DNA of 64,000 nt from Hamadaea tsunoensis DSM 44101 (GTDB lineage Bacteria; Actinomycetota; Actinomycetes; Mycobacteriales; Micromonosporaceae): contig NZ_AUAX01000008.1 in NCBI RefSeq assembly GCF_000428945.1, positions 124,001 to 188,000 of the forward strand, written 5' to 3'. The notes below the pieces were generated by a model. It was given only the letters and a program-made list of their open reading frames with translations, had not been told where the DNA came from and searched no databases. Shown here in pieces: positions 358-56,523 of this stretch. A program made the position numbers and the translations under genes. Numbering within the stretch: position 1 is the stretch's first letter; every line of letters begins with the position of its first letter.

Positions 358-1317
358 CGACGATCTTGCGCGAATGCCCCGAGTTTCGTCCGGAATACGG
401 GAAATGCCCGGACATTCGCGCAAGATCGTCGCGGCTGGGGACCGGACACTCGTGCAAGATCGTCGCCGCTGGGGGATCGAGGCCTCACCCCCGAGCCGCC
501 GGCCTCACCCCCGGGCGGCGGCCGCGCGTGTGTCGTTGTCGCCGTGTTCGGCGCCTCGCACCCTTTGCGACCTTGTCGCGACTGTCCGATACGGGCATTC
601 GGGGTGGCCGACGCGGCAGCCCATCGGGTCGGGGATCTTGACGGATGTCCGGTTGTCGACGTCGGAAGAGATCAACTGCGGGGCAACCGGGCATCCGTCA
701 AGATCGCCCACGGATCGGCGGCCCGACCGCACTGCACGGCGGCGCCGAATCAGGGCTGCGGTGATCGTTTGCGGGTGCGATGTAATTTTCGGGCCGCTCC
801 CTCGATCCAGTCCGGCTGAGATGTAGCCGTGGGCCAGTTTCCTCCATCGGAACCGCTTTGGATCATGGGCGAGCGGTGCGGTTGGACATCTGGGCCGCTG
901 TGGATCACGTCCGAGCCGTCCGGCCCCCGGTCGGGGTCCGTGGTGCGGGAACGATCTTCCGCCCAGTGGATAGGCGTCGTCGACCTGCTGATCGTTTACG
1001 GCTGGGGTGTAATTCCGGCCCGATCTGCATGATCGAATACGCGTGAGGTGTAGCCGGATCCGGTCAGCGTGCTCCGCAACCGTAAACGATCATGCACAAG
1101 GCGGCCATATTTACACCGCAGCCGTCAACGATCACTCCGTCGGCGATACGCCCGGCACACAAGTCGGACAGTCGCGACAAAGGCCGGGGTGAAGGGGTAG
1201 ACGGTGACCGGACCGCGGTGAAGGATGCGTCGCCCCACTCACCTGGCAGTGGAGGCCCCCCAGGGCCGGAACGGTCTCCCGCGGGAGGAGCGGAGGTGAG
1301 ATCGACGAACCCGGGAC
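358..1317. repeat. Long intergenic repeat element, copy A (about 960 bp)
   Basis: This gene-free stretch is near-identical over most of its length to 52975-54008 (inverted, copy C) and, with a deletion, to 28331-29201 (copy B). It contains three inverted-repeat modules. Module 1 at 358-376/413-431 has perfect 19-bp arms (CGACGATCTTGCGCGAATG and its complement). Module 2 at 634-655/684-705 has 22-bp arms with one mismatch. Module 3 at 990-1001/1080-1091 has perfect 12-bp arms (GATCGTTTACGG). Two GC-rich ~19-bp units lie at about 483-525. The right boundary GAACCCGGGAC is shared by all three copies. Open frames inside it are not supported: none has a convincing start or protein-like composition, and the copies are not conserved as protein. 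Function unknown. Confidence 0.85.
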
Positions 1318-1319
1318 AA

Positions 1320-1339
1320 AAAGATCTTCAAATTGATCT

Positions 1340-1341
<2 letters not shown>
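1320..1341. terminator. AT-rich inverted repeat at the element A / ABC-F junction
   Basis: AAAGATC at 1320-1326 pairs with GATCTTT at 1335-1341 around an 8-base spacer. It lies just outside the right end of element A and overlaps the stop codon of the ABC-F gene. It could terminate the ABC-F transcript, but there is no clear T tract beyond the stem. A similar AT-rich palindrome follows element B at 29210-29227. Confidence 0.35.
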
Positions 1342-2941
<1,600 letters not shown>

Positions 2942-3135
2942 GGTGCTGCCATCGTACCGGGGCGGAGGAATCCGTTTTCGGGCCCGAACGGGTGTCTCGC
3001 GCCACTCCCGCACCCTCCCCGGCTCCCCTGGTCCCGCCGGCCCACCTCCGGCACCCCCGCCGAGCCACCCTCGGGATCCCGCTGGCCCCACCCCGAGGCC
3101 CGCGCGCGCCCACCCAAGATCCCGCTTGGACCCAC

Positions 3136-3219
3136 CCAAGATCCCGTTTGGATCAGGGAAATCACCCGAATCTTGGCCCATGATTACGTGCGGAACCGTG
3201 ATCCAAACCAGATCTTGGG
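3136..3219. repeat. Palindromic intergenic element, copy P1
   Basis: One of five copies of an 80-85 bp imperfect palindrome. The outer arms read CCAAGATCCCGTTTGGATC and, inverted, GATCCAAACCAGATCTTGG. The centre holds ATCTTGGCCCATGATTACGTG. This copy lies between the divergent ABC-F and metallopeptidase genes, so it is not simply a terminator. The rest of the gap (2942-3348) is GC-rich sequence with CGGGCGCAGGCC-type short repeats at about 3230-3280. I see no gene in it. Confidence 0.8.
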
Positions 3220-27694: not shown

Positions 27695-28330
27695 CTCCCC
27701 CGGCGCTCCTGTCACCGCATCTCTTGCATGATCGAGGTGGCTTGCATGATCGAGGGTCTCAGCGATGTGGCCGCCGGTGCTCGCCTGGTCGTTGGCCGGG
27801 TCCTGATGCGGGGGGAGCGATCCATCGCGTCGGATCCTCGCAGGTGGCCTGGACCGGGCCTGGGCTTTGTCGCGGCTGTCCGGTATGGAGGCTGTCCGAT
27901 GCGTCCGGGGTGTGGCTCTCTCATGGGTCGGGGTGTCGCTGGGCCTCGATCCAGTACCCGGATGCTGTAGTAGTGGATCTCTGTGGCGTGATCAGGTTCC
28001 CTGGAGCTGCGGATTCTGCCTGTTTTCTGCAGGATTTGGGAACTTGATCATGCCTTCACGTCTGCTCGATCATGCCTGCACGTCTGATGGGGCGATCACT
28101 GTCCTGAGTGATCATTTACCGCTATTACGGCGGGACGCGGCAGATAGCCTTGATCAAGTACCGTCTATTCGGCAAAGGAGGGCCCGCCCGCCGTAATGAC
28201 GGTATTTGATCAAGGAAATCGGCGTCGCGATGCCGTTATAGCGGTACTTGATCAAGGTGATCGTGTCGCGGGTGGGGACGAAGTTGTCGGCCCCGACGGA
28301 TCACCCACACAGGCAACCGGAGAGCCGAAC
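27695..28330. other. Gene-free stretch before element B
   Basis: No open frame here looks like a protein. The stretch holds several short repeats. TTGCATGATCGAGG occurs twice in direct orientation near 27725-27756. A GATCATGCC...CACGTCTG unit occurs twice near 28046-28086. A variant of the CTTTGTCGCGACTGTCCG motif lies at 27865-27883. GATCAGGTTCCC near 27989 is an imperfect inverted match of GGGAACTTGATC near 28037. The four-unit array at 28109-28257 is listed separately. The composition is richer in A/T than the flanking genes. Confidence 0.6.
28109..28257. repeat. Array of four 23-26 bp units phased at about 42 bp
   Basis: The units are at 28109-28131 (inverted), 28148-28173 (inverted), 28190-28215 (direct) and 28232-28257 (direct). 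Each joins a CCG-N6-CGG palindrome (for example CCGTTATAGCGG) to a CTTGATCAAG or similar palindrome. The first unit is the most degenerate at its GATCA end. Unit starts are 39, 42 and 42 bases apart, about four helical turns, and the two inverted units face the two direct ones. Such phasing suggests binding sites for one protein on the same DNA face. No function is known. Confidence 0.75.
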
Positions 28331-29201
28331 ATTCGCGCAAGATCGTTGCGGCTGGGGGCGGACATTCGCGCAAGATCGTCACCGCCGGGGGATCGAGACC
28401 CCACCCCCGGCCGCCAGCCTCACCCCCGGCCGCCGGCCTCACCCCCGGCCGCCGGCCTCGGCCCCGGCCGCCAGCCTCACCCCCCGGCCGCCAGCCTCGG
28501 CCCGGGCTGCCGGCCTCACCCCCGGTCGGCGGCCGCGCGTCTGTCGCTGTCGCCGTGTTCGGCGTCTCGCACTCTTTGCGACTTTGTCGCGACTGTCCGA
28601 TATGGACATTCGGCGGCGCCGAATCTGGCCGCGGTGATCGTTTGCGGGTGCGATGTAATTTTCGGGCACGTTCCCTCGATCCAGTGCGGCCGAGATGTAG
28701 CTATGGGCCGGTTTCCCCCATCTGAACCGTTTGGATCATGGGCGAGGGGTGCGGTTGGACATCTGGACCGCTGTGGATCACGCCTGAGCCGTCCACCCCC
28801 GGGTCGGGGTCCGTGGTGCGGGAACGATCTTCCGCCCAGTGGACAGCCGTCGTCGACCTGCTGATCGTTTACGGCTGGGGTGTAGATCCGGCCCGATCTG
28901 CATGATCGATGACGCCTCAGGCGTAGCCGGAGACGGTCAGCGCACTCCGGAACCGTAAACGATCATGCGCGGGGTGGCCGTATTTACACCGCAGCCGTCA
29001 ACGATCACCCCGTTCGACGGCCCGCCGCCGCACATACCGGACAGTCGCGACAAAGGCCGGGGTGAAGGGGTAGACGGTGACCGGACGACGGTGAAGGATG
29101 CGTCGCCCCACTCAGGTGGCAGTGGAGTCCCCGGAGCGAAGCGATAGGGGCGGAACGGTCTCCCGCGGGAGGAGCGGAGGTGAGATCGACGAACCCGGGA
29201 C
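28331..29201. repeat. Long intergenic repeat element, copy B (about 870 bp)
   Basis: Same orientation as copy A. It shares the CATTCGCGCAAGATCGT start, the TTTGTCGCGACTGTCCGA motif at 28583-28600, the GATCGTTTACGGCTGG block near 28862 with its inverted partner CCGTAAACGATC near 28953, and the same right boundary GAACCCGGGAC ending at 29201. It lacks module 2 entirely: sequence passes from the CGACTGTCCGATA block directly to GGCGGCGCCGAATC. It also lacks the left arm of module 1. Its internal minisatellite is expanded to about seven units. Frames within it look non-coding. Confidence 0.82.
28397..28530. repeat. GC-rich minisatellite inside element B
   Basis: About seven imperfect copies of a ~19-bp unit of the form CACCCCCGGCCGCCGGCCT. 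The equivalent place in copy A (483-525) holds about two units, and in copy C (about 53790-53890, opposite strand) about five. The differing number indicates slippage within an otherwise conserved element. Confidence 0.75.
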
Positions 29202-29209
29202 CAGAATTT

Positions 29210-29227
29210 GATCTTAAATTTAAGATC
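29210..29227. repeat. Perfect 18-bp AT-rich palindrome after element B
   Basis: GATCTTAAATTTAAGATC is its own complement. It lies nine bases beyond the element boundary and about 25-50 bases upstream of the lipoprotein gene, where it could be an operator or part of a promoter. An AAAGATC/GATCTTT repeat occupies the same place beside element A. Confidence 0.6.
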
Positions 29228-29279
29228 ATGGGCACGCTCCCAAGCAACCTAAGTGGAGGCCCGGCGCGTTCTTGTGCGC

Positions 29280-35200: not shown

Positions 35201-35219
35201 CGCGGGTCCCACGGGCTTG

Positions 35220-35302
35220 CTTGATCCCGTTTGGATCAGGGAAAACACCCGAATCATGGGGCATGATTACGTGCGAAAACCTGATCCAAGCGGGATCTTG
35301 GC
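35220..35302. repeat. Palindromic intergenic element, copy P2
   Basis: Outer arms TTGATCCCGTTTGGATCAGG and, inverted, CTGATCCAAGCGGGATCTTG, with the shared core CACCCGAATCATGGGGCATG and ATTACGTGCG. It is in the same orientation as P1 and P3. It lies between the membrane protein and the WYL gene, both on the plus strand. Confidence 0.8.
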
Positions 35303-39260: not shown

Positions 39261-39380
39261 GGCGCTATCACTCCTGTAAGAAAGAAGGGCTTCACCAGCA
39301 AGATTAACGGGGCGGGCGGCGGGTGGCCGACAGCCAATCGATCCCGGGTGGCCAGCTACGTGAGCCAGATCACAGTATTG

Positions 39381-39644
39381 CTGGGCTCGCCCTCCGGGCG
39401 ATGCCGGCGTCGCGCCCCTCATGCAACGTCCGTCGGCACAGAGATCCTCAACCGCTACGCGCTTGCAGATCTTGCACCGCCGGACGCCGCAGGCGCAACG
39501 CTGCCGGGCTCGCCCTCCGGGCGATGCCGGCATTGCGCCCCTTATGCAACGTCCGTCGGCACAGAGATCCTCAACCGCTACGCGCTTGCAGATCTTGCAC
39601 CGCCGGACGCCGCAGGCGCAACGCTGCCGGGCTCGCTCCGCGGG
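39381..39644. repeat. 123-bp tandem repeat, about 2.1 copies
   Basis: The unit starting GGGCTCGCCCTCCGGGCGAT recurs at 39383, 39506 and (partial) 39629, an exact 123-base period. The two full copies differ at only a few positions, such as GGCGTCGCGCCCCTC against GGCATTGCGCCCCTT. Each contains CAGAGATCCTCAACCGC and GCTTGCAGATCTTGCACCG. 123 is divisible by three, so an open frame runs across it, but the peptide is Arg-rich and low in credibility. The 392-base gap between pdxS and the next gene holds no other feature; the pdxS promoter must lie near 39261-39370. Confidence 0.85.
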
Positions 39645-45127: not shown

Positions 45128-45212
45128 CCCAAGATCCCGTTTGGATCAGGGAAATCACCCGAATCATGGCCCATGATTACGTGCGTTTCCCTGATCCAAA
45201 CGGGATCTTGGG
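45128..45212. repeat. Palindromic intergenic element, copy P3 (most perfect)
   Basis: The outer arms are perfectly complementary over 27 bases (45128-45154 and 45186-45212), containing AAGATCCCGTTTGGATCAGG and its complement. The centre holds a second palindrome ATCATGGCCCATGAT (45163-45177) and ACGTGCG. It lies between two converging genes (EF-G2-like stop 45100, MFS-SnoaL stop 45219) and could act as a bidirectional terminator here, but copies elsewhere lie between divergent genes. Confidence 0.85.
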
Positions 45213-47401: not shown

Positions 47402-47420
47402 CCCGCGCCCCGGGCGCGCG

Positions 47421-47502
47421 CTTGATCCGGTTTGGATCAGGGTTTCGCACGTAATCTTGGGCCAAGATTCGGGTGATTTCCCTGATCCAAACGGGATCTT
47501 GA
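47421..47502. repeat. Palindromic intergenic element, copy P4
   Basis: Opposite orientation to P1-P3: CTTGATCCGGTTTGGATCAG, then CGCACGTAATCTTGGGCCAA, then CCCTGATCCAAACGGGATCT. It lies between the converging TetR and polysaccharide deacetylase genes. Further partial CTTGAGCC/CTTGGGCC half-repeats continue to 47545. Confidence 0.8.
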
Positions 47503-47545
47503 GCCAGCCGGGGGCCTTGAGCCGGGCGGGATCTTGGGCCGGGGG

Positions 47546-51071: not shown

Positions 51072-51283
51072 GGTGTGCTCCTAGAAGAAGATCGGCACGG
51101 GCTGGACCGGACATTCCCGGCCCCGCGCCATGCTATCGCCCGCCCCGCGCCGCCCTCCGCCCCGCCTCACCCGGTCCCACCGATCCGCCCGCCACACGCC
51201 GCCGCGATCCGGCCGTGTCGCCCTGACTCCGCGCCCGTGACCCGGCGCCCGTGACCCGGCGCCGTGACTCCGCCTAGCGCCGC

Positions 51284-51364
51284 CGTGATCCCGCTTGGAT
51301 CACGGTTGCGCACGTAATCATGGCCCAAGATTCGGCTGATTTCCCTGATCCAAGCGCGATCATG
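51284..51364. repeat. Palindromic intergenic element, copy P5
   Basis: Same orientation as P4: GTGATCCCGCTTGGATCACG, then GCACGTAATCATGGCCCAAG, then CCCTGATCCAAGCGCGATCA. The arms have drifted but keep paired changes (GCTTGG against CCAAGC). It lies between divergent thrS and the serine hydrolase gene. The 473-base gap here holds P5 and the 20-bp tandem repeat and no gene. Confidence 0.75.
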
Positions 51365-51365
51365 G

Positions 51366-51462
51366 CTGGGTGTGGGCCGGGGCCGCTGGGTGTCGGCCGG
51401 GGCCGCGGGGTGTGGGCCGGGGCCGCGGAGTGAGGGCCGGGGCCGCGGAGTGAGGGCCGGGG
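51366..51462. repeat. 20-bp tandem repeat, 4.85 copies
   Basis: Units begin at 51366, 51386, 51406, 51426 and 51446, with consensus CKGGGTGTGGGCCGGGGCCG drifting to CGGAGTGAGGGCCGGGGCCG in the last two. Neighbouring units are most alike, as expected for expansion by slippage. It lies ~80 bases upstream of the serine hydrolase start. Confidence 0.85.
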
Positions 51463-51544
51463 CAGGGACGCCGCGGGGACGCGTTCAGGGAGCTACCAGG
51501 TTGCGGCCAGGGATCGCTCAGAGCTATGGACGAGGCTAAGCGTC

Positions 51545-52492: not shown

Positions 52493-52951
52493 ATGATCTG
52501 GTGGCTTCTCCTCGCCGTCGTCGTGATCGTCGTCGCTGTCGTCCTGCTGCGCCGACCGGCGACCTCGCGCCGTCGACCGGTCCCCAAGGCACCCCCGCGG
52601 CGGCCCGCCCCGCCGAGGCGCGCCCCCACCCTCGTCGGCACGCCCCGGCCTGGGGAGATCTGGTGGGCGGACGTTCCCTACGAGGACGGCACCGGACACA
52701 AGATCCGCCCCTGCCTCGTCCTGCGCGGCGGCGGGAAGTCGTTCGAGGTCCTCAAGATCACAAGTCAGGACCAGAGCGACCGCACCGACCATGTCCAGAT
52801 CCCCACGAAGGCCTGGGATCCCGGCGCCGACCACAACAGCTGGCTGGATCTCACCGGTCCCATCCGCGTACAGGCTTCGTCCTTCGAGGACAAGGCAGGG
52901 CTGCTCGACGCCACCATCTGGCGCAAGGTCCGCCGCCTCCACAATGTCTAG
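52493..52951 (+). CDS. Membrane-anchored PemK/MazF-like domain protein
   Basis: A protein of 152 residues. Residues 1-20 are a hydrophobic anchor (MIWWLLLAVVVIVVAVVLLR), followed by a basic Pro/Arg linker to about 48. The rest reads as a PemK/MazF-type beta-barrel: RPGEIWWADVPYEDGTGHKI, RPCLVLRGGGKSFEVLKIT, QASSFEDKAGLLDATIWRKV. MazF-like toxins are normally soluble RNases paired with an antitoxin. Here there is no antitoxin gene and the domain is tethered to the membrane, so a toxin role is doubtful. It is 15 bases after the serine hydrolase and 24 bases before element C. Confidence 0.78.
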   Translation: MIWWLLLAVVVIVVAVVLLRRPATSRRRPVPKAPPRRPAPPRRAPTLVGTPRPGEIWWADVPYEDGTGHKIRPCLVLRGGGKSFEVLKITSQDQSDRTDHVQIPTKAWDPGADHNSWLDLTGPIRVQASSFEDKAGLLDATIWRKVRRLHNV

Positions 52952-52974
52952 ATCACTCTCTCTATAAAGACGTT

Positions 52975-54008
52975 GTCCCGGGTTCGTCGATCTCACCTCC
53001 GCTCCTCCCGCGGGAGACCGTTCCGCCCCTATCGCTTCGCTCCGGGGACTCCACTGCCACCTGAGTGGGGCGACGCATCCTTCACCGTCGTCCGGTCACC
53101 GTCTACCCCTTCACCCCGGCCTTTGTCGCGACTGTCCGACATGTGCGCCGGCGGCACCGCCAACGGGGTGATCGTTGACGGCTGCGGTGTAAATATGGCT
53201 GCCCTGCGCATGATCGTTTACGGTTGCGGAGCGCGCTGACCGGATCCGGCTACACCTGACGCGTCATCGATCATGCAGATCGGGCCGGAATTACACCTCA
53301 GCCGTAAACGATCAGCAGGTCGACGACGGCTGTCCACTGGGCGGAAGATCGTTCCCGCACCACGGACCCCGACCGGGGGCCGGACGGCTCGGACGTGATC
53401 CACAGCGGCCCGGATGTCGAAACGCACCTCTCGCCCATGATCCAAAGCGGTTCAGATGGAGGAAACTGGCCCACGGCTACATCTCAGCCGGACTGGATCG
53501 AGGGAGCGGCCCGAAAACTACATCCCACCCGCAAACGATCACCGCAGCCCTGATTCGGCGCCGCCGTGCAGTGCGGTCAGGTCGCCGATCCGTGGGCGAT
53601 CTTGACGGATGTCCGGTTGCCCCCGCAGTTGATCTCTTCCGACGTCGACAACCGGACATCCGTCAAGATCCCCGACCCGATGGGCCACCACATCGACCAC
53701 CCCCGAATACCCATATCGGACAGTCACGACAAAGTCGCATAGGGATGCGAGACGCCGAACACGGTGACAGCGACAGAAGCGCGGCCAGCGACCGGGGCGA
53801 AGCCGCAGCGTACCGGGGGTGACGCCGGCGACCCGAGGGTGAGGCCGGCGACCCGAGGGTGAAGCCGGCAGCTCGGGGTGAGGCCTCGATCCTCCATCGG
53901 CGACGATCTTGCACGAATGTCCGCCCCCCAGCCGCGACGATCTTGCGCGAATGTCCGGGCATTTCCCGTATTCCGGACGAAACTCCGGGCATTCGCGCAA
54001 GATCGTCG
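52975..54008. repeat. Long intergenic repeat element, copy C (about 1034 bp, inverted)
   Basis: Inverted relative to A and B. Module 1 arms are at 53935-53953/53990-54008 (19 bp, perfect). Module 2 arms are at 53598-53619/53649-53670 (22 bp, perfect, where copy A has one mismatch). Module 3 arms are GATCGTTTACGG at 53212-53223 and its complement at 53302-53313. The shared end GTCCCGGGTTC lies at 52975. An extra copy of the CGGACAGTCGCGACAAAG motif follows at 54071-54088, outside the element, next to the DUF3995 gene. No gene is supported anywhere in 52952-54107. Confidence 0.85.
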
Positions 54009-54107
54009 GGCAGGGCCGGACAGGTCGGACGGGGCGCGGAGGGCCGGCGGGTCGCGGCGAGCCGGCGGATCGGACAGTCGCGACAAAGGCCAGAGGGGGC
54101 GAAGGGA

Positions 54108-55526: not shown

Positions 55527-56523
55527 CCGCGTACGCGTCGATCTCGGCCAGGATCGCCGACTTGGCGGCGTCGGACGCGAACGACTGGCGTACGCCGGCG
55601 CGGGCCAGGTCCGCCACGCCGGACTCGTCGAGGCCGAGCAGGCGGGCGGCGACGGCGTACTCGTCGCCGAGGGTCGTGGAGAACATGGGCGGGTCGTCGG
55701 TGTTGATGCTGACCGGTACGCCGGCCGCGACGATCTGCGGCAGCGGGTGCTCGTCCAGCGAGGCGACCGCGCGGGTGCACACATTGGACGTCGGGCAGAT
55801 CTCCAGCGGGATCTGGTGCTCCGCCAGGTGTTCCAGCAGCGCCGGATCCTGCGCCGCCCGGATGCCGTGGCCGATGCGCTCGGCGCCGAGCAGGCGTACG
55901 GCGTCCCAGACCGCCTGGGCGTCGGTGGTCTCCCCGGCATGCGGGTTGCTGTGCAGGCCGGCCGCCCGGGCCTGGTCGAAGTATCGCTGGTAGGGCGCGC
56001 GGGGGCCGTCCGGTCCGCCGAGGCCGAAGCTGATCAGGCCGTCCGGCCGCTGCTCCAGCGCGATCGCCAGGGTGCCCTGGCCGGCACCCATCCCCTCGGC
56101 CTCGCTCGGGATGTCGAAGCACCAGTTCAGGGTCAGGTTCAGGTCGCGGGCGGCGGCCGCGCGGGCGTCCTCGATCGCCTCGCAGAAGGCCTCGGCCGGG
56201 ATGCCCCGCTTCACGCTCGACCAGGGGGTCACGGTCAGCTCGGCGTAGCGGACGTTCTGGGCGGCCAGATCCTGCGCGACGCCCCAGGTCAGCGTACGCA
56301 CGTCCGCGGCGTCGCGGATCAGGTCGACGACGCTCAGGTAGACCTGGATGAAGTGCCCGAAGTCGGTGAAGCTGAAGTACTCCGCGAGCTTGTCCGGGTC
56401 GGCCGGGACCGGCGAGGTGCCCTCGTGCCGGGCGGCGAGCCGGGCGACCGTCTGGGGCGAGGCCGAACCGACATGGTGCACGTGCAGCTCTGCCTTGGGC
56501 AGGCCGGCGATGAACTCCCGCAT
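55516..56523 (-). CDS. add: Adenosine deaminase family hydrolase
   Basis: A protein of 335 residues with a TIM-barrel metal hydrolase layout. It has a metal motif LPKAELHVHHVGSASPQT (His pair, about residues 13-15), the metal/catalytic HAGETTDAQAVW, IGHGIRAAQD, and a final Asp pair in SINTDDPPMFST. It deaminates adenosine or a related purine base. The HVHHVG segment differs from the common HLHLDG, so the substrate could be another adenine compound. The start at 56523 (MREFIAGLPKAEL) is favoured over the longer frame to 56574. Its stop overlaps the sigma start. Confidence 0.87.
   Translation of the reverse strand: MREFIAGLPKAELHVHHVGSASPQTVARLAARHEGTSPVPADPDKLAEYFSFTDFGHFIQVYLSVVDLIRDAADVRTLTWGVAQDLAAQNVRYAELTVTPWSSVKRGIPAEAFCEAIEDARAAAARDLNLTLNWCFDIPSEAEGMGAGQGTLAIALEQRPDGLISFGLGGPDGPRAPYQRYFDQARAAGLHSNPHAGETTDAQAVWDAVRLLGAERIGHGIRAAQDPALLEHLAEHQIPLEICPTSNVCTRAVASLDEHPLPQIVAAGVPVSINTDDPPMFSTTLGDEYAVAARLLGLDESGVADLARAGVRQSFASDAAKSAILAEIDAYAGGR

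Follow-up and report, generated by a model that had tools for sequence, protein, structure and literature searches.

A probable family of non-autonomous mobile elements with inverted ends predicted to fold in Hamadaea tsunoensis

A 64,000-nucleotide stretch of the Hamadaea tsunoensis DSM 44101 genome (hereafter the window; contig NZ_AUAX01000008.1, positions 124,001 to 188,000) contains three copies, A, B, and C, of a repeat of about 1 kb. Taken as a whole, the repeat is probably best explained as a family of non-autonomous mobile elements with the organization tail–T–middle–T–tail, in which T is a terminal module that lies inverted at the two ends and is predicted to fold. A non-autonomous mobile element was among the readings offered by the initial annotation, and copy number, patchy distribution among genomes, empty sites in congeners, and a T-to-T unit shared by unlinked loci all favor it. 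Another of those readings, a chromosome-organization site, received no support from these analyses.

The initial annotation described three highly similar stretches with a common boundary, and alignment bears this out. Identity over gap-free columns is 90–93% (A–C, 897/960 or 93.4%; A–B, 687/764 or 89.9%; B–C, 749/833 or 89.9%), and the three copies share one exact terminus, GAACCCGGGAC. Copy A begins with a 74-nt palindromic module, I1 (358–431), whose family recurs at other places in the genome. Two further palindromic modules, M1 (615–723) and M2 (762–1134, with GATCGTTTACGG arms), are followed by T (1158–1317, plus strand), which has motif P (GGACAGTCGCGACAAAGG, 1166–1183, plus strand) at its start and the fixed boundary GGGAC at its end. 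The T core that is common across genera and predicted to fold occupies 1244–1317 (plus strand; model match 1244–1321). Beyond it, an AT-rich tail (1318–1341, plus strand) runs into the TAA stop of an ABC-F-like gene (TTA on the plus strand, 1340–1342).

Copy B (28325–29201, plus strand) has T at its right end, with the core at 29117–29201 and an AT-rich tail at 29202–29229 (both plus strand), upstream of an alpha/beta-hydrolase lipoprotein-like gene. It lacks the module found at 608–757 of copy A, and with it M1, and carries an extra 19-nt tandem array (28404–28537). Copy C (52975–54106) lies on the minus strand, as do its T (52975–53145), its T core (52975–53059), its AT-rich tail (52952–52974) – which directly follows the TAG stop of a PemK-like gene (52493–52951) – and a cut-off second end at about 54070–54106 that consists of the start of T with motif P. 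The window also contains a 20-nt tandem array (51365–51464), a 123-bp tandem duplication of 97% identity that overlaps open frames (39379–39624), and five copies of a second palindromic repeat family (CCCAAGATCCCGTTTGGATCAGGG...; 3135–3219, 35218–35302, 45128–45212, 47419–47503, and 51282–51366). The core of this second family ranks with the commonest repeated words in 464 kb of the genome (the window plus 400 kb of contig C1), and at one matching site the congener G003 carries a palindrome that is analogous but not the same.

We found no sign of coding content, in agreement with the initial annotation. Gap lengths between copies are mostly frame-breaking (A–C, 6/6; A–B, 9/10; B–C, 9/9), and A–C substitutions show no clear codon-phase bias (20/26/17). 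Eight ORFs of at least 60 amino acids overlap copy A and 13 overlap copy C; the four ORFs lying inside these copies were searched and gave no Pfam match. The neighboring genes are unrelated, as had been claimed – by Pfam, an ABC-F-like ATPase, an alpha/beta hydrolase, and a PemK-like protein, with no Pfam match for the left neighbor of copy A – though the placement of the elements is not random, as described below.

The initial count of three copies, by comparison, proved far too low. Allowing up to three mismatches, a 26-nt terminus pattern occurs 228 times in the 9.48-Mb genome (110 forward and 118 reverse) and the reversed control pattern not once, so the similarity of the copies is not due to chance. 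With copy A as the query, there were at least 158 matches in the genome (the best 40 of 473 candidates were scored), and a covariance model found 19 T cores at E ≤0.1 in the 464 kb, of which the window holds three. The elements combine T (1158–1317 in copy A) with several GATC-containing palindromic modules in mosaic fashion, and these modules also recur in the genome.

In two-ended units, T forms outward-facing inverted ends around a middle of palindromic GATC modules, with a tail beyond each end. Among 101 distinct T ends in own-genome loci picked by similarity, 22 outward pairs with mirrored tails have such inverted ends of ~160–190 bp. These pairs span 333–1339 bp end to end, nine of them 736–803 bp. 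In one-ended copies, A, B, and C among them, a single T remains and the second end is lost or cut off. Two units at unlinked positions of C1 (24.1–24.9 kb and 91.4–92.1 kb), which adjoin unrelated genes, align over 785 bp at 86% identity from T boundary to T boundary. A different arrangement was seen in Asanoa ishikariensis (G078; locus L164, 1501–1904), where five tandem T units at ~81-nt spacing lie upstream of a gene, as if slippage had amplified one end.

Comparison of T across genera supports the prediction that its core of about 75 nt folds, with helices backed by compensatory changes. When T cores from the window and numerous other genomes (91 in all) are aligned, the 14 named pairs are paired in 94.3% of cells; pair 7–80, for example, is GC in 55 sequences, CG in 25, UA in five, and UG in one. 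A hairpin at 11–14/73–76 varies in sequence and in length, from none to ~100 nt, and mostly stays paired. The covariation score is 0.272, against 0.105 for shuffled alignments (reached in 0/500) and at most 0.069 when the structure is slid, in a test that favors the structure to some degree because it was partly chosen on the same alignment. Two other measures were not unusual: seven two-sided pair changes were reached in 110 of 500 shuffles and 20 further pair types in 55 of 500. A candidate long-range pair between columns 88 and 131 (CG 63, UA 22, UG 1) has a signal that subfamilies may partly explain. Folding T alone was uninformative (z = 0.06).

Wobbles favor one strand of this predicted fold. 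Leaving aside the near-constant pair G3–U84 and two weak rows of the 89 distinct rows, both of which were kept for the covariation score, there are 19 G-U cells and three A-C cells, which fits the strand on which T points outward. The initial annotation had suggested a structured RNA. Structure in the terminal ~75 nt is upheld by the covariation and the strand-biased wobbles, both of which fit RNA and single-stranded DNA alike and so leave the RNA part of that suggestion indistinguishable from single-stranded DNA. Rfam 15 gave no match over the gathering score in the window, and with gathering and loose E-value thresholds nothing at T reached the gathering score. In 20 T loci the only families over that score were SAM riboswitches, which lie outside T (L172, 1279–1410; L174, 2700–2838).

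The paired ends could also mark a strict miniature inverted-repeat transposable element (MITE) – a DDE transposon reduced in length, in which a transposase supplied in trans would bind the long inverted ends as double-stranded DNA. The 22 outward pairs with ends of ~160–190 bp and the absence of coding content would suit this explanation, but we think it rather unlikely. Direct repeats at the T boundary are 0–2 nt long in 22/22 pairs (mean 0.18, versus 0.10 for shuffled sequences), so that no target duplication is seen there, a measurement that would miss a duplication lying outside the variable tails. Neither covariation within T nor strand bias among its wobbles is expected if double-stranded DNA is recognized. 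Moreover, no pair has room for a transposase, and none of the 22 is a full-length transposon with matching ends, in a search limited to pairs of up to 1500 bp.

Comparison with congeners points to gain of the element at copy A. The same convergent genes occur in 3/3 congeners, with stops only 17 (G001), 18 (G003), and 3 nt (G002) apart, whereas ~1 kb separates the same stops here. With gaps of 3–18 nt in all three congeners, insertion is the best reading of copy A. The ABC-F gene ends in TGA in each congener and, in this genome, in a TAA that lies inside the tail. That a 1-kb element could enter a 3–18-nt convergent gap without loss of either gene shows how more than 200 such ends can accumulate in one genome, and the same insertion shows remodeling of a stop codon during uptake of an element. 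At the copy C site, 10 nt separate the end of the PemK-like gene in G003 from sequence that matches window position 55531; copy C and some further genes are therefore extra in this genome. The PemK-like gene stops with TGA in G002 and G003 and with TAG in this genome. For copy B, the G003 sequence compared contained no collinear stretch.

The same pattern extends to other loci. Six of 13 T loci on C1 (15, 24, 48, 91, 256, and 274 kb) have collinear flanks in G003, and T is present at none of the six G003 sites; the T at 256 kb is degenerate (21.2 bits). In five of these six loci the gap is longer in this genome (e.g., 893 versus 110 nt at 24 kb), the exception being the 48-kb locus, where the G003 gap is the longer (570 versus 322 nt) and contains palindromes of its own. 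At 24, 48, and 91 kb the protein encoded in this genome ends, by eye, about four residues before its G003 relative. Across 550 kb from the congeners, the covariance model detected no T at E <0.01; its best hit there, adjacent to the SDR gene of G002 (22.9 bits, E 0.012, other orientation), was weak and was treated as chance. At C1 75.9–79.0 kb, a gene flanked by a plus and a minus T core has the opposite orientation in G003, as though recombination had taken place between inverted repeats.

T is distributed unevenly across the family. The covariance model identified T in at least 32 of 150 family genomes and in at least 10 of 44 genera; with the best 31 candidates scored per genome, this genome reached 31 and the six Asanoa genomes 23–30. 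A 22-nt core pattern, scanned across 354 Micromonosporaceae genomes, occurs 217 times in this genome; 49, 51, 59, 66, 72, and 93 times in the six Asanoa (g19) genomes; 4–32 times in seven g66 genomes; 1–10 times in five g7 genomes; 11 times in G135; nine times in G027; and 5–6 times in the three congeners. Elsewhere there are mostly 0–3 occurrences and a few up to six, with controls at 0–4. T is thus high-copy in all six Asanoa genomes, moderate in some members of a few further genera, and close to background in the rest. A scan of named genomes with the core pattern listed at least 23 stretches. The model confirmed 12/12 from Asanoa or Actinoplanes, including records of A. ishikariensis (G078), A. 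hainanensis (G133), and Actinoplanes sp. NBRC 103695 (G153); among the other 11 listed, only those from Streptomyces seoulensis (20.8 bits) and a Planctomycetota metagenome-assembled genome (18.8 bits) scored at all. The pattern had no match in a viral contig collection.

T copies mostly lie directly beside genes. The gene calls, made by a simple codon-usage script that misses some genes, such as an SDR gene at 15.4 kb, occupy 86% of the 400 kb of C1, yet just one of its 16 T cores falls within a call, toward the 3' end of the ORF; the other 15 are outside. The fixed end of T is faced by a gene 3' end in 65 of 93 distinct copies and by none in 28. When four G021/G027 loci are omitted, 61 of 89 own-genome copies face a gene 3' end, 49 of them within 50 nt. 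Genes ending this close to T use TAA stops more often than gene calls overall (18/49 versus 30/311; p = 5e-6), and TAA occurs in one of 12 genes that end further away. In the cross-genus set of 91 matches, T faces a gene 3' end in 58 and a gene start in 21; copy B also faces a gene start.

The AT-rich tails beyond the T boundary are loosely conserved. GATC lies within 34 nt of the boundary in 80 of 88 copies (the same four G021/G027 loci omitted) and CAAGATC, read in the sense of the gene, in 61. A run of thymines marks the boundary (91% T at −1, 84% at −4), and tails fold slightly better than shuffled tails (−3.6 versus −2.5 kcal/mol). Within an element, each tail mirrors the other, and this likeness slightly exceeds that between elements (p 0.03–0.13, by length compared). 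We rejected the idea that the tail is an ordinary terminator that also occurs without T, since AT-rich CAAGATC/GATCTTG stretches in the 464 kb (31 in C1 and four in the window, by eye) all adjoin T. We likewise rejected a palindrome already present at the target, since the empty sites of copy A contain none. In one Actinoplanes record (G153; locus L179, ~1415–1503), the T-adjacent tail consists of an extended array of AAGATCAAGGTC-like repeats.

This placement and these tails could belong to a module useful to the host, in which T at gene 3' ends terminates transcription or blocks antisense read-through and has spread by gene conversion and selection. The frequency with which T faces gene 3' ends, the thymine run, the slight folding of the tails, and the presence of T at the same gene in two g66 species (loci L168 and L170) would all suit such a module, which we nevertheless consider improbable. 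T is absent from the same sites in congeners, its copy number is very uneven, and similarity extends over whole units at unlinked loci. In addition, an ordinary GC-rich hairpin persists between the gene and T in at least two elements (e.g., C1 24.9 kb), and the wobbles favor the strand antisense to the adjacent gene.

Searches for a mobilizing enzyme returned none of the domains sought in this genome. Y1_Tnp (PF01797) is absent from it and from G021, on which basis a RAYT/IS200 origin was rejected. It has no PF07282 (TnpB/Cas12f), and no T lies beside the TnpB loci of other genomes (14/14), so a TnpB/omega-RNA system was rejected as well. Reverse transcription was set aside because RVT_1 yielded no match and no candidate in this genome; there was also no match in G078, G124, and G133, all of which have many T copies. 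In other genomes, T is likewise not beside 12/19 RT and 4/7 Y1 loci. The T copies have diverged, so a lost mobilizer is possible.

The same searches bear on the idea that the family is an RNA-directed relic, with T as an omega-RNA-like scaffold or a start site for reverse transcription and the tail as a guide or 3' tail. A fold that ends at the element boundary, the candidate pair 88–131, and the A-rich repetitive tails, including the AAGATCAAGGTC repeats in Actinoplanes, are features such a relic might have. We judge it decidedly doubtful given the missing PF07282 and RVT_1 domains, the lack of RVT_1 in T-rich genomes, the separation of T from TnpB, RT, and Y1 loci, and the lack of any Rfam match to T; two inverted ends with a conserved tail also fit a free guide poorly. 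Least credible is that nothing was gained here and the elements are ancestral and were lost in the congeners: T in several genera would allow an old origin of the family, but copy A would require three clean losses to 3–18 nt, and several hundred parallel losses are unlikely.

How a non-autonomous mobile family of this kind might move can be sketched from these features. Its ends would be recognized as a folded single strand, with DNA likelier than RNA; we regard this step, taken by itself, as evenly balanced. A putative enzyme would act in trans and may now be lost. Insertions would come to lie beside genes through targeting, selection, or both, and an insertion could overwrite a stop codon, with the AT-rich tail supplying a new one. 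The hairpins might then help to end transcription of the neighboring genes. We suggest only tentatively, and lean against, the stronger proposal that this is a new kind of mobile element, with multi-helix inverted ends, including a candidate pair that involves the extreme 3' end, recognized as a folded single strand by machinery other than Y1, TnpB, or RT, inserting beside genes without target duplication and able to supply a new stop from its tail. Ends that covary across genera offer a concrete handle for tracing the mobilizer.

In IS200/IS605 elements and TnpB omega-RNAs, a folded domain ends at the element boundary and there is no target duplication. T resembles these systems, compared here by their general features, in having a fold that ends exactly at the boundary and in showing no target duplication; it differs in being inverted at two ends, in its conserved tails, and in lacking Y1_Tnp, PF07282, and Rfam matches. 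A literature search, covering titles and abstract openings, found no description of such repeats in Micromonosporaceae. REP sequences and BIMEs, as presented in PMC3733652, are high-copy extragenic palindromes that occur singly, paired, or in mosaics, are moved by RAYT (Y1) transposases, and have a 20–40-bp palindrome tagged at one end with GTAG (or CGTC). Shared features are high-copy palindromes near gene ends, ends that would fold as single strands, and the lack of autonomy. Set against that account (PMC3733652), T has no GTAG tag and this genome no Y1_Tnp, and in place of a 20–40-bp hairpin there is a ~75-nt multi-helix core in units of 0.3–1.3 kb with inverted ends. T itself does not have the form of a REP; palindrome I1 has CGTC at both ends.

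BOX elements of pneumococcus and other streptococci are modular, with constant end modules and variable middles, according to PMC3049150. Both are modular composite repeats with predicted folded transcripts and no known mobilizer gene inside; here, however, the same module is inverted at both ends, the sequence is unrelated, and the phylum is another (PMC3049150). MITEs are defined by terminal inverted repeats, a target-site duplication, and a full-length transposon with matching ends (PMC3049150, PMC2229807). Correia/NEMIS, RUP, and ERIC sequences are, like this family, intergenic, gene-less, and folded, with inverted ends. Compared with bacterial MITEs of 100–200 bp, as described in PMC2229807, the units here are longer and have long inverted ends (~160–190 bp), no target duplication was found, and there is cross-genus covariation within the end. 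Small non-autonomous mosaic repeats are a known kind of element; what is new here is the folded end family, together with its putative mobilizer.
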